Origin: Rhodospirillales bacterium | GTDB taxonomy: Bacteria; Pseudomonadota; Alphaproteobacteria; Rhodospirillales; Thalassospiraceae | Assembly (NCBI GenBank): GCA_019634165.1 | Contig: JAHQVT010000008.1 | Coordinates: 62,001-126,000 of the forward strand | Reading direction: 5' to 3' | DNA: 64,000 nt | Part shown: positions 33,414 through 39,598 of the stretch, piece by piece | Numbering within the stretch: the stretch's first letter is position 1 | Layout: each line of letters opens with the position of its first letter | The notes under the pieces: model-generated | What the model was told of the DNA's origin: nothing | The model's input: the letters and a program-made list of their open reading frames with translations, nothing else | Database searches by the model: none | Program-made: the position numbers and the translations under genes

Positions 33414-33438
33414 GACGCGCAACGCGCAGATTTGTGAT
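33414..33438 (-). promoter_or_regulatory. Cluster promoter motif 6 (ATCACAAAT-N12-CGTC)
   Basis: Minus strand: ATCACAAAT, 12 bases, CGTC. Same two boxes and spacing as five other sites in this cluster. CGTC ends 42 bases before the rebB start at 33371. Confidence 0.75.
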
Positions 33439-33447
33439 CAAGTTTTG

Positions 33448-33672
33448 CTAGCCAGCTTGCGCCGTTATCATGGCAACAAGCTTTGATGTCGACGTATTGA
33501 CGACTTGCTGCATGTTGCCTTGGACGAGTGTGGCGTTTTCCATTGCAAGTCCGGTGGCATGAGAATGCGACTGCAGTGCAATCGACACAGCCTGTGCCGG
33601 ACTTTCACCCAAAACCTTGACGTTGGTTTGGGTAACCGCATCGGTGACTTGTGGATTGACGATGTCGTTCAT
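33448..33672 (-). CDS. RebB family R-body protein (short form)
   Basis: 74 residues, the shortest copy: NPQVTDAVTQTNVKVLGESP, AQAVSIALQSHSHATGLAM, ENATLVQGNMQQVVNTSTSK. It keeps the core but ends soon after it. It lies 43 bases downstream of the stop of the alternative frame of the previous gene and has no separate promoter motif, so it is probably co-transcribed with the genes at 34143 and 33808. Confidence 0.9.
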   Translation of the reverse strand: MNDIVNPQVTDAVTQTNVKVLGESPAQAVSIALQSHSHATGLAMENATLVQGNMQQVVNTSTSKLVAMITAQAG

Positions 33673-33715
33673 GTTACGGCCTTTGTGATCAGGGTCATGA
33701 GTTTTGGTGGACTGA

Positions 33716-33886
33716 TCAGGTTGGTCCTGTCAGTTGATCCCACCAGTTGCCTTCTGATTCCCCAGTCTCTTTCTCATCCGAGGATGGCGCGCCGGTTGGC
33801 GCTGCCATCAGGTCGGATTGTTGTTTGGATCCGGCGTTGCCTTGACTGCTTGACGCGGTGTTAGCTGGGGAGAGGAAAAAAAATTT
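33716..33886 (-). other. Alternative C-terminus in the -1 frame behind an AAA-T8 slippery tract
   Basis: On the minus strand AAATTTTTTTT (33886-33876) lies in the reb gene that starts at 34131. In the main frame the codons are CCA-AAT-TTT-TTT-TCC and the protein ends at 33808. A one-base backward slip gives AAA-TTT-TTT-TTC and continues for about 54 residues: Ser/Gln-rich, then acidic, ending NWWDQLTGPT with TGA at 33716. That tail has codon usage like real genes and fills the otherwise empty gap before the next rebB. Fused product: 138 residues. Confidence 0.6.
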
Positions 33887-34131
33887 GGTTTGTCTTCCTG
33901 AATAGACAGGGTCGATTTTGCGCATTCCATGGTGGTCGCTAGACTGGCAACGGAAAGCTGTTGCTGTTCGTTGACCATATTCGCAAACAGAATGCCCTGC
34001 GCCTGTGCCTGGGAAAGATACGACTGCATCGTGCCCATTGCCGGGCCAGAACCAATCACGGTGGTATTGGTCTGGGTTACACCGTCCGTAATCTGTTCGT
34101 CGACTTCGTGTGCATCATTTTGGGTGCTCAT
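33808..34131 (-). CDS. RebB family R-body protein with internal slippery T8 tract
   Basis: 107 residues as read in one frame. The reb core is present: DEQITDGVTQTNTTVIGSGP, AMGTMQSYLSQAQAQGILFA, NMVNEQQQLSVASLATTM. After residue 82 it meets a run of eight T bases and ends with a short Pro/Asn-rich tail at 33808. In the -1 frame a longer, more natural tail continues to 33716. Either the run is variable (phase variation, sequencing slip) or the ribosome or polymerase slips to make two forms. It starts 11 bases after the reb gene at 34143 and shares its transcript. Confidence 0.8.
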   Translation of the reverse strand: MSTQNDAHEVDEQITDGVTQTNTTVIGSGPAMGTMQSYLSQAQAQGILFANMVNEQQQLSVASLATTMECAKSTLSIQEDKPNFFSSPQLTPRQAVKATPDPNNNPT

Positions 34132-34142
34132 TGGAATGTTCC

Positions 34143-37209: not shown

Positions 37210-37230
37210 CACCTGAAGACGTTTCAGGTG
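37210..37230 (-). terminator. Hairpin after the 153-residue protein gene
   Basis: CACCTGAA / TTCAGGTG with a 5-base loop, 31 bases after the stop at 37261. No T-run follows, so it is only a possible terminator. Confidence 0.35.
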
Positions 37231-37260
37231 TGTCCTTGGTGTTTGATCAATACGAATTGG

Positions 37261-37722
37261 TCAGGGTTTTTTGGTCGAACGGTTCCCACGTGTTGTGCGT
37301 TTGCTTTGGGTCGGTTCTGATGTTTCGGATGGCTCCTGGGGTGGAAAGGCATTGGCCAGCGCTGTTTCCACTTTTTCTGATAAAAGCTGCATCCGCATAT
37401 CAACTTCGCGGGTGATGAGGTTGCGAATTTCAGTTGCAATGTCGAACATGACCTGTTGATCGCTGTGACGGTTTGGATCAGAAGCCATATGTGGTGCGCC
37501 TTGCTGGCTACCAATGGGGGGCTGCTGAGTTTTTGTTCCGGCTTTGACGTCTTCAGCGTAGTTGGCAATGGTATGCCGTTGATCAATGACTTGTGCGCGG
37601 GCGCGCTCGGCGGCCTGCGTCATGGCTTGTTGAGTAGCCATATATTCCTGATTGAATGCCTTTCTGACAGCGTCTTTGCGACCGCTTGCTGTGGCCATAT
37701 CATTTGGCGCCTGCCCCGACAT
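37261..37722 (-). CDS. Unknown protein of the R-body cluster, helical
   Basis: 153 residues, not recognised. Residues about 10-60 are helical and charged (RKDAVRKAFNQEYMATQQAM, QAAERARAQVIDQRHTIANY) and about 90-125 form a second amphipathic helix (FDIATEIRNLITREVDMRMQ) that could coil. A disordered Gln/Pro-rich linker separates them and the tail is basic (KRTTRGNRSTKKP). No signal peptide or membrane segment. Its ATG overlaps the stop of the 585-residue gene as TGATG, so the two are translated together and read from the promoter at 39574. Possible roles are chaperone or assembly factor for R-body ribbons; this is inference from position only. Confidence 0.7.
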   Translation of the reverse strand: MSGQAPNDMATASGRKDAVRKAFNQEYMATQQAMTQAAERARAQVIDQRHTIANYAEDVKAGTKTQQPPIGSQQGAPHMASDPNRHSDQQVMFDIATEIRNLITREVDMRMQLLSEKVETALANAFPPQEPSETSEPTQSKRTTRGNRSTKKP

Positions 37723-39479
37723 CAGGTGTCTCCCTTAGTACTTGCGTTGTCATTGCCAGATTTGCTTGCACTGCCGGTGCCGCTGGATTTTGTCGTGCCA
37801 CCCGATGCCTTGCCTGCAGACGATGATGATGCTTTGCTGCTGCTGCTTGCTGTTTTCGCAGATGTGCCACTGGCCGTATCCGCAGCCGTGCTTGCAGGCG
37901 CATTTTTCTTTGCTTGCCCGGACGATTGTTTGCTGGCGGCGGCACTGCTGTCGGTTTCGTCTGCCGCTGGGGCGCCAGTACCTGTGCCAGCCTCAGTACC
38001 TGTGCCAGCCCCCGTACCTGTACCAGCCTCCGTACCTGTACCAGCGTCTGTGTTCGTGCTTGCGGGCGGAAGGATAAAGCCATATTTTGGAAGATCGGCT
38101 TCATCGGGAATATCGGCCAGACCGGTCAGGCTGGTTTCCAGACGACCGTTGGAATTTGACACCATGCTTGCTGCACGACAGGCGGCATTATCGCTTTGCG
38201 CGGCACAGCTTAGGATCGCAGTCGGGGTCGTGGTTTTTGACTCCGTCAAAAGCTGGGCTGTGACGTTAAAGCTGGTTTCCTGATTGTATTGCACCAAAAT
38301 CATAAGCCCCGCGCCCTTGTCGCCTTCGCTGGGCGGGGTGATTTGTACCCAAAACGGGATACTGTAATTCGGTCCAACGACAATGCTGCCGCCGATGATC
38401 GGGCTGGGCAGGGATCCAATATATTCAAGCTGGGCGGGAATGGGCGCACGGTCGGCAAAGATCAGCCGGATAAGGGCCAGATTGGGCACCGCTTCGCTGG
38501 ATGTTGACCCGATTGATTGTTCAAGATGAAGGGCGTATTCCCCGCCACCATAAATCGGCACCTCGGACATTTGCTGGCCACCGTCATTCTGTGCGGTGGT
38601 ATCGAACAAAAGGGCGCGCAATTGCGATGGTGTGTTTGTTGGCAAAGATACAGAAAGCTCGGACTGTGCATCGGGGGATGGCCCGACCTGAAGACGCCAT
38701 TTGCTTAATGTACCGGGAAGATCGGCGGCACTAAGTTTTGCGCCAATTGCGGTTTGCGCACTCGTCTGCCCCGGTGCAAGAGGTAACCCCTGCATCATTT
38801 TGATGGCCCAATCGGGCGTATCGGCACCCTCCGATGCATTGCCCTGCAGGCACGGCATGGCGGTGCGGAACATATCGTCCTGAATAACCGGACCATTAAG
38901 GTTGGTCGTGCTGCCGTCGCTATGGATGGTGGTAAGCCCCCATTGCGCAGCACTGTTTTCAGAAGAACTGCCGGAAGTCTCGGAATTAAAGTTGCTCATC
39001 GCGGGTGCCTCGCTTTTATCGGGGGCGGACGGAAAGTTAATGCCTGCGGCCTTGGCAAGGATGCTTGCCGGATCAGGAATGACGTCATTGAAATTCGGTG
39101 ATGGCCCGCCTGTCATGTTTTGGGGCGCGCTCGCAGGTGGGCTGGCATCTTGGTTAAACAGAAACCGCTGAATGATTTCAAAAGCCGTTTCCGCCGGTTC
39201 TTGCGGACTGTTTTGCGCCGGGCTTGGTGAAAACAGGTTGCCTGATGCGTCTCCTGGCAAACCATCAAGACCAAATTCCCGACAAAGCGCGGCCATGACA
39301 TCCAAGGCGACCTGGGGTTCATCCTTGTTTTCAGCATCTGCTGTGGGGGATTCCTGCGGGGTTTTGCCCGTATCAGGTTTGCCGGTGTTGCTGTTGCTGT
39401 TGCTGTTGCTGTTGCTGTTGCTGTTGCTGTTGCTGTTGCTGTTGGCCTGATCTGGTTTGGGCGCGTCACTGTCTGTCAT
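37722..39479 (-). CDS. Large unknown protein of the R-body cluster with low-complexity ends
   Basis: 585 residues from ATG 39479 (GGGGA nine to ten bases upstream); an earlier in-frame start at 39548 is less likely. Residues about 12-30 are an Asn-Ser repeat (N(SN)9), followed by a Pro/Ser-rich region, a central globular part (about 210-450, with LPGTLSKWRLQVGPSP, LHLEQSIGS and SIPFWVQITPPSEGDKGAGL), and a C-terminal tail with GTGTEA repeats and Ser/Lys/Ala-rich sequence. No signal peptide, membrane helix or known motif. First gene of a two-gene unit behind promoter motif 1. The central part has beta-rich, assembly-like composition; function unknown. Confidence 0.75.
   Translation of the reverse strand: MTDSDAPKPDQANSNSNSNSNSNSNSNSNSNTGKPDTGKTPQESPTADAENKDEPQVALDVMAALCREFGLDGLPGDASGNLFSPSPAQNSPQEPAETAFEIIQRFLFNQDASPPASAPQNMTGGPSPNFNDVIPDPASILAKAAGINFPSAPDKSEAPAMSNFNSETSGSSSENSAAQWGLTTIHSDGSTTNLNGPVIQDDMFRTAMPCLQGNASEGADTPDWAIKMMQGLPLAPGQTSAQTAIGAKLSAADLPGTLSKWRLQVGPSPDAQSELSVSLPTNTPSQLRALLFDTTAQNDGGQQMSEVPIYGGGEYALHLEQSIGSTSSEAVPNLALIRLIFADRAPIPAQLEYIGSLPSPIIGGSIVVGPNYSIPFWVQITPPSEGDKGAGLMILVQYNQETSFNVTAQLLTESKTTTPTAILSCAAQSDNAACRAASMVSNSNGRLETSLTGLADIPDEADLPKYGFILPPASTNTDAGTGTEAGTGTGAGTGTEAGTGTGAPAADETDSSAAASKQSSGQAKKNAPASTAADTASGTSAKTASSSSKASSSSAGKASGGTTKSSGTGSASKSGNDNASTKGDT
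37978..38049. repeat. Four tandem 18-bp repeats in the large unknown gene
   Basis: Four units of the form GTACCTGTRCCAGCNTCN, differing at a few positions, encode the six-residue AGTGTE/G repeat near the C-terminus of the 585-residue protein. In-frame, so copy changes would not break the gene. Confidence 0.8.
39387..39443. repeat. Hexanucleotide microsatellite (AACAGC, 9.5 copies)
   Basis: Nineteen codons alternate AAC and AGC without a single interruption on the minus strand, coding N(SN)9. Perfect repeats of this length are prone to copy-number change by slippage; because the unit is six bases, the frame is kept. Confidence 0.9.
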
Positions 39480-39573
39480 GCATGCATTCCCCAGTATTGC
39501 TCTTGCAGCAGGCAAAAGGCCGGATTTGCAGCCGCCATTAATCTGCAAGGATTTAAACGGTTCCTTGCAAAAA

Positions 39574-39598
39574 GACGCTTCGCACGCGGGAATGTGAA
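39574..39598 (-). promoter_or_regulatory. Cluster promoter motif 1 (TTCACATTC-N12-CGTC)
   Basis: Minus strand: TTCACATTC, 12 bases, CGTC, then TT. CGTC ends 94 bases before the ATG at 39479. It is the outermost copy and marks the upstream edge of the reb cluster. Confidence 0.7.

Follow-up and report, generated by a model that had tools for sequence, protein, structure and literature searches.

R-bodies are large coiled protein springs; they have been linked to paramecium killing and, in Pseudomonas, to colonisation of the host. To our knowledge, little is known about the trigger of their production. Like the locus analysed here, the reb cluster of Pseudomonas aeruginosa PA14 comes with its own sigma gene, and in the consulted excerpts of PMC8322103, which give no site sequence, expression of rebP1 requires FecI2, while control requires RcgA too. 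As for a FecI2 motif, TCACA and CGTC have no occurrence in the text of PMC4362757. In the group 2 reb synteny, the gene of sigma factor HP2.3 adjoins the reb genes and was suggested as their controller (PMC3583457, in excerpt); no promoter sequence is given in that excerpt, and the word 'promoter' does not occur in the text. The reb operon of Azorhizobium caulinodans is also under dedicated control, there by a repressor and an activator acting on one operon (PraR and RebR; PMC5527310, in excerpt), and 'sigma' has no occurrence in that text. The TCACA sequence of Rhodospirillum centenum was considered as a parallel and set aside, being a CRP-like site with no reb in the excerpt of PMC4681086.

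On the promoter side, the nearest likeness is to ECF41 sigma factors, which recognise the boxes TGTCACA and CGTC at nearly the same spacing as the sites described below, carry a C-terminal regulatory extension and drive COE genes (PMC3426412, in excerpt). The sites of the reb clusters, relatives included, read TCACA-N15/16-CGTC, with nearly the same boxes as in that excerpt but no requirement for the preceding G. For both ECF41 (same excerpt) and the cluster sigma, no anti-sigma gene is recognised nearby. No COE-type family was found among the cluster proteins scanned, which cover part of the neighbours.

In the marine bacterium studied here, the R-body cluster is probably self-activating and turned on as a single unit. 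Compared with PA14 as described in the excerpts of PMC8322103, its sigma factor is about 255 amino acids longer at the N-terminus, and four reb units, a large gene and the sigma gene each have a site in front. A single short promoter code and a single sigma factor with a built-in self-activation loop seem to govern the whole reb cluster, so that R-body production in a marine Thalassospira may be testable through one gene.

Gene content and promoter-like sites

Seven RebB-family (PF11747) genes above the cut-off identify the locus, from its genes alone, as a Reb/R-body cluster. All cluster genes lie on the minus strand, including the one at 33371-33048, which the preliminary description had called divergent. 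The cluster opens with a gene for a 585-aa protein of unknown family (37722..39479), for which 37 homologues were found, all with a Thalassospira name or without a name; no kinship was found with a 207-aa protein of genome G709. It overlaps by one base a gene for a 153-aa protein, also of unknown family (37261..37722). Then follow the gene of a 427-aa ECF-type sigma factor with a GTG start (35680..36963) and the RebB-family genes at 35134..35457, 34574..34909, 34143..34448, 33808..34131, 33448..33672, 33048..33371 and 32728..32988. A gene for a 199-aa protein with a low-complexity N-terminal part and without a family match (32037..32636) completes the series; its relatives stand at the end of related clusters. 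Transcription-factor families had no match among the cluster proteins scanned. A cyclase-like gene, identified by eye, adjoins the cluster (30629-31933).

When both strands of the window (the whole 64,000-bp stretch of DNA that was analysed) were searched for TCACA-N15-CGTC, exactly six matches were obtained, all on the minus strand. In 100 shuffled versions of the window, the mean number of matches was 0.45 (sd 0.74, maximum 3) and none had six, so that the six copies claimed before exceed what chance would give. The preliminary description had written them as TTCACATTC followed after 12 bases by CGTC, which is the same pattern, correctly placed. Site 1 (39574..39597) lies 94 bases 5' of the large gene, site 2 (37026..37049) 62 bases 5' of the sigma gene, and sites 3 (35544..35567), 4 (34984..35007) and 6 (33414..33437) lie 86, 74 and 42 bases 5' of the RebB-family genes at 35134..35457, 34574..34909 and 33048..33371, respectively. 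Site 5 (34489..34512) lies 40 bases 5' of the RebB-family gene at 34143..34448, which leads a unit. Distances from CGTC to the start codon therefore span 40-94 bases, in line with the 40 to 95 given previously. The RebB-family gene at 33448..33672 is without a site of its own, here and in related loci.

The genome of this bacterium (4.28 Mb) contains 34 exact TCACA-N15-CGTC matches, of which six fall inside the 6.2 kb of the cluster, where 0.04 would be expected at the density of the remaining 28. A genome scan had been proposed as a check on whether the motif is confined to the cluster: 28 of the 34 matches lie outside it, but the six cluster sites take ranks 1-6 when the matches are scored with a matrix trained on other Thalassospira, from which these six sites had been excluded.

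Conservation of the sites in Thalassospira

Across 18 Thalassospira reb loci, 109 sites were found on the cluster strand and none on the opposite strand, counts that do not represent independent events as the loci are related. The box columns are 0.90-1.00 conserved in these loci, compared with 0.53-0.73 for the spacers, and the base preceding TCACA is G at 55, T at 36 and A at 24 of 115 sites. The number of sites follows the number of reb genes: loci with seven reb genes have six sites (12/12), and those with eight have seven sites in five of six cases, the sixth (L051) having a masked (N) first site. A site stands 5' of the sigma gene in 21/21 related loci, including three from RebB-less genomes; these three Thalassospira genomes (RebB in 0/3, against seven RebB in 2/2 controls) retain both the sigma gene and the sites. 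Two pairs of loci each come from one genome (L050 and L105 from G267, L049 and L198 from G710), and L105, L198 and L199 were left out of the site, conservation and sigma-motif association counts. Upstream windows were 250 bases long, with starts taken from the longest frames. Among 359 permuted dyads, one reached 25 Thalassospira genes, namely ATCAC..CGTC, a shifted register of the same sites; the next best reached 14.

The spacing, previously described as invariant, is constant throughout the window and at all but a few Thalassospira sites; some relatives have N16, for example at the orthologous site 1 of L043, L044, L048 and L049. The occurrence of two spacer lengths, 15 and 16, among relatives is new with respect to the preliminary description.

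The cluster sigma factor and its association with the motif

The cluster sigma factor has PF04542 (sigma2) at residues 270-331 and PF08281 (sigma4) at residues 369-421, both in its C-terminal part, and no match to a sigma3 or sigma1 domain; having sigma2 and sigma4 alone, it belongs to the ECF (group 4) type, and TIGR02937 (sigma70-ECF) is above its cut-off. A variable extension of about 255 aa precedes sigma2. The protein is set apart from ECF41 by its sigma4 helix and by where its additional sequence lies, at the N-terminus; it lacks an extension at the C-terminus, the sigma4 match reaching to residue 421 of 427. Should a differently built sigma clade use a promoter code so close to that of ECF41, this would matter for the prediction of ECF targets from sequence. 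As a separate observation, the gene adjoining the genome's own ECF41 gene has, read by eye, TGTAACG-N16-CGTC in front.

The clade of the cluster sigma is present in eight of 385 genomes of the class, seven of which have RebB. Where the clade sigma occurs in other families (four Sneathiella-type genomes and G028), boxes stand before reb genes in 5/5, as against 1/12 reb genomes without it, G175 (a 16-residue match) and G454 (below cut-off, internal stops) having been dropped from the latter. By upstream region, reb clusters without the clade have boxes at 1/45. In all four Sneathiella-type loci, the sigma gene borders the reb genes and TCACA-N16-CGTC precedes reb genes, and G028 has boxes at 2/11 reb upstreams plus one before its sigma gene 17 kb away. 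Genome G709, with no RebB match, has a site immediately 5' of its sigma gene. Several cases count against the association: G107 has the sigma but neither reb genes nor a perfect upstream site, G112 (81% complete) carries a site in front of a reb gene while the clade sigma was not found, and in G247, where the clade sigma is missing, a TCACG variant stands 44 bases ahead of a reb gene. Another point against the mechanism proposed below is that no site precedes the sigma genes of the Sneathiella type. A dyad search in the Sneathiella-type set returned CACA-16-CGTC at 6/31 upstreams, weak by itself with background tops of 4-5; in G028 it returned a G+C-rich dyad at 6/11 (background tops 3-4), and in f38, L111 and the set of L109, L110, L114 and L117 nothing clear of background.

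Proposed mechanism and alternatives

The six sites are very likely ECF promoters read by the cluster sigma, the promoter of its own gene included, and they point to a self-igniting R-body production that would be seeded by the housekeeping polymerase. TCACA would be the -35 and CGTC the -10 element, with the product of 35680-36963 as the predicted reader that binds there and sets the transcript starts. Overlapping site 2 are sigma70-like hexamers, TTCACA-N18-CATAAT (37021..37050, minus strand), and such an overlap (at least 9/12 matches) occurs at 20/22 sigma-gene sites but at 0/99 other sites. Among the sites, its limitation to the sigma gene suggests basal seeding plus self-activation. Polymerase with the housekeeping sigma would deliver a small amount of the ECF sigma which, once abundant or active enough, would activate not only its own gene but also, simultaneously, the four reb units and the pair formed by the large and the 153-aa genes; the N-terminal extension is a candidate signal input. 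Control of every unit, its own gene included, by the cluster sigma, as was proposed from the window, is the best-supported explanation, though not proven: it is backed by footprinting, by the co-occurrence of sigma and motif across families, even where reb genes are missing or far away, by the top-six matrix ranking and by the weakening of ECF41 as the reader. Observed are the sites and how they are conserved, the order of the genes and the association across genomes; from these we infer sigma binding, the positions of the transcript starts and the switch.

ECF41 itself comes into question because its published motif, TGTCACA-N16(±1)-CGTC, has almost identical boxes (PMC3426412, in excerpt) and the genome encodes a true ECF41 (G000:C12:156487-157407). 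As reader of the sites it is nonetheless improbable, since G168, G342 and G028 have sites but no ECF41 (their best matches, with E values of 4.4e-9, 1.9e-8 and 3.4e-5, are other ECF-type proteins), whereas in G164 an ECF41 (E 2.4e-48) coexists with a reb cluster that lacks the sites; moreover, no TGTCAC-type site was found within 14 kb around the genome's own ECF41. We give little credence to the repeat being a transcription-factor binding site instead of a promoter, for instance of a CRP/FNR protein. In its favour, TCACA equals one half of a CRP site, some reb clusters come with a cyclic-nucleotide-binding regulator (PMC3583457, in excerpt) and a cyclase-like gene, identified by eye, lies beside the cluster (30629-31933), but the TGTGA-N6 partner is absent: at least 3/5 matches to it occur at 10/115 sites and at 84/920 shifted controls, and a CRP-type palindrome was rejected for want of enrichment over these controls. 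A promoter accounts better for the CGTC at fixed distance, the gene 40-94 bases downstream and the association with a sigma gene. Common descent alone, in which reb units were copied along with the DNA in front of them and the motif is a leftover, agrees with the gain of one site per extra reb copy. It is hardly credible, however, as boxes are retained where the spacers have drifted apart, both from site to site and from species to species, and as the sigma and large genes, which are not reb relatives, carry sites, as do other families.

A seventh site outside the cluster

Another promoter-like site (G000:C10:626202-626225) lies between a response-regulator gene and yggS. It is conserved in 20/20 loci fetched without using the motif (L234-L253); L256-L258, which were found via the motif itself, stand outside this count. 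Of 29 genomes of the genus that match at this site, 20 gave loci, and three more match G385-G387 by coordinates. It is conceivable, though we hold this reading only tentatively, that the sigma is more than a regulator of R-bodies and represents an older clade which reads a promoter code of its own, TCACA-N15/16-CGTC, and whose core target in Thalassospira would be this site, kept with and without reb; the R-body genes may have been recruited to this sigma, and the combined housekeeping and ECF promoter of the sigma gene would turn R-body synthesis into a switch that ignites itself in some of the cells. Behind the site, no Rfam match to a known RNA was obtained in five loci, and three terminator-like sites lie near it over 1.4 kb of the own genome, compared with 1.8 expected. 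The sequence TTATCCACA, which we take to be a DnaA box, occurs at most 60 bases downstream in 19/20 loci and is absent in the own genome. As the cause of the conservation it was rejected: in 901-base stretches of three reb-less genomes, all without TTATCCACA, the TCACA and CGTC boxes of the seventh site persist.

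Predicted promoter sites of the reb cluster

The reb cluster (32037-39479, all genes on the minus strand) encodes proteins of 585 and 153 aa without family assignment, an ECF-type sigma factor of 427 aa (the cluster sigma, 35680..36963), seven RebB-family proteins, and a protein of 199 aa. RebB proteins have a structural role in R-bodies (PMC3583457, PMC8322103), and the seven PF11747 matches found in the window's Thalassospira-like genome, G000 (4.28 Mb in 15 contigs), all lie inside the cluster. Close to its start, the 585-aa protein has an SNSNSN tract encoded by TTGCTG repeats (39380-39480), which are likely variable in length. 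Sigma genes in reb clusters have been described before (PMC3583457; PMC8322103; PMC13430693). A promoter code for the reb genes of Thalassospira and of the Sneathiella-type group (four genomes) and for the sigma clade appears to be new; a literature search by title and abstract, with few subscription papers covered, turned up none.

The motif TCACA-N15-CGTC, read as predicted -35 and -10 boxes, matches six times in the window, always on the minus strand within the reb cluster and 40-94 bases before a start codon, against a mean of 0.45 in shuffled sequences (six reached in 0/100 shuffles), which bears out the six copies of the preliminary description. Exact matches are not confined to the cluster, as 28 of the 34 in G000 lie elsewhere; 24 of these were checked for open frames (20 within some frame of at least 100 aa, 4 not), and the remaining four were scored by matrix only. 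In the ranking by a matrix built from sites of 21 other Thalassospira loci, with the window sites excluded from training, the six cluster sites come first (25.5 to 34.1), followed by one other site (23.7) and then by scores of at most 18.1, although the flank columns favour orthologous sites and thus flatter the six cluster scores but not the seventh.

In 373,605 bp from 18 Thalassospira loci with reb genes, all 109 sites lie on the cluster strand. In four upstream groups, aligned by gene and independently of the motif, conservation was 0.90-1.00 in the box columns, 0.53-0.73 in the spacers, and 0.57-0.78 in the flanks, some values being depressed by imperfect gene starts. The number of sites, N16 spacers included, tracks that of reb genes, with six sites for seven genes (12/12 loci) and seven for eight (5/6 loci; the exception is L051, whose first site is masked sequence). 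The spacing, described earlier as invariant, is N15 at all six window sites; the first site of L043, L044, L048, and L049 has N16.

The cluster sigma as predicted reader of the sites

The 21 named loci carrying the cluster sigma are all from Thalassospira, and each of them has a site ahead of the sigma gene. Three of the 21 come from reb-less Thalassospira (L056:9102-10690, L057:9504-11134, L058:9576-11239); in these the sigma gene has kept its chromosomal position and is accompanied by two sites in tandem. A RebB search of these three genomes found none (two control genomes yielded seven each), and the motif thus accompanies sigma, not reb alone. The L056 sigma aligns over residues 191-427 only, and its N-terminal part may be damaged.

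Across 385 genomes of the class, RebB was found in 15 and the sigma clade in 8, of which 7 have RebB (Fisher 2e-10, though two are Thalassospira and four belong to one genus). In all four Sneathiella-type genomes the best homologue of the cluster sigma adjoins the reb cluster and TCACA-N16-CGTC lies ahead of reb genes (6/27 upstreams); no site lies ahead of their sigma genes, a point against the cluster sigma as reader. Genome G028 has boxes at 2/11 reb upstreams, and its sigma gene, 17 kb off, has a site in front. Where the clade is missing, boxes occur at 1/45 reb upstreams and in 1/12 genomes, against 5/5 for the four Sneathiella-type genomes plus G028 (Fisher 0.001). As control, 359 permuted-box dyads matched on average 0.34 genes in Thalassospira, 0.08 in the Sneathiella-type genomes, 0.02 in G028, and 0.06 in the rest, with maxima of 25 (true sites in shifted register), 3, 1, and 2. 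A further point against is genome G107, in which the sigma occurs while reb and a perfect upstream site are both missing. The sigma is also present in G709 (E 2e-22), which is not of this class, with a site 4 bases ahead of the longest sigma frame; G709 is absent from the 11 RebB genomes found in a search that covered it. At a distance of 4-5 kb, two small frames have three further perfect sites (two N15, one N17) beside them. In this genome (L229:4641-10069) the same boxes adjoin non-reb genes, one encoding a Phage Tail Collar domain. Relatives of the clade (P0148, P0150, P0153; 36-40% identity) come from organisms named as Myxococcus or as cyanobacteria (Leptolyngbyaceae, Rubidibacter).

The site before the sigma gene and this co-occurrence support the earlier proposal that the cluster sigma drives the units and itself, with recognition predicted from sequence. 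The sites might instead be read by ECF41 sigmas, whose reported TGTCACA-N16(±1)-CGTC (PMC3426412) is almost identical to the cluster boxes; G000 encodes a true ECF41 (G000:C12:156487-157407), and ECF41 and sites occur together in G041 and G265. However, sites are present without an ECF41 in G168, G342, and G028, and G164 has ECF41 and reb genes yet no sites, so that ECF41 cannot be their general reader. Membership of the cluster sigma in ECF41 was rejected as well: despite the near-twin motif, it lacks the C-terminal extension, has a long N-terminal one, and differs in the sigma4 helix, its own form being common to its clade. Next to the G000 ECF41 gene lies a gene, preceded by TGTAACG-N16-CGTC, that judging by eye probably encodes a carboxymuconolactone decarboxylase.

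Proposed switch at the sigma gene

At the sigma gene only, the site overlaps sigma70-like hexamers (TTCACA-N18-CATAAT), matched at 9/12 positions or more at 20/22 sigma-gene sites (8 at the other two) and at 0/99 other sites; these 121 sites are not independent cases, since they amount to one orthologous promoter versus about six. A housekeeping sigma would provide a low supply of cluster sigma, which would then activate its own gene and co-activate the R-body units. The cluster probably works by such seeding and self-activation, judging from its promoters. The patchy expression of PA14 rebP1 (0.26% of cells, PMC8322103) would fit this model. The N-terminal extension of the cluster sigma, variable and proline-rich, is a candidate signal input because, according to a review (PMC8999054), extensions of this kind serve a regulatory function in ECFs that lack an anti-sigma.

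A seventh site outside the cluster

The best non-cluster match in G000, TTTGTCACA-N15-CGTC (G000:C10:626202-626225; L028:1501-1524), is flanked by a response-regulator gene and yggS (both named by eye); the two converge and thus leave no obvious coding gene downstream. A non-coding transcript may begin at this site, or the site may have some other role. Often it is followed by TTATCCACA, which resembles a DnaA box. Its boxes are present in 20/20 loci fetched by DNA similarity, without using the motif, and in three reb-less genomes located through the motif; over 23 Thalassospira sequences the boxes are invariant, with a spacer conservation of 0.48.
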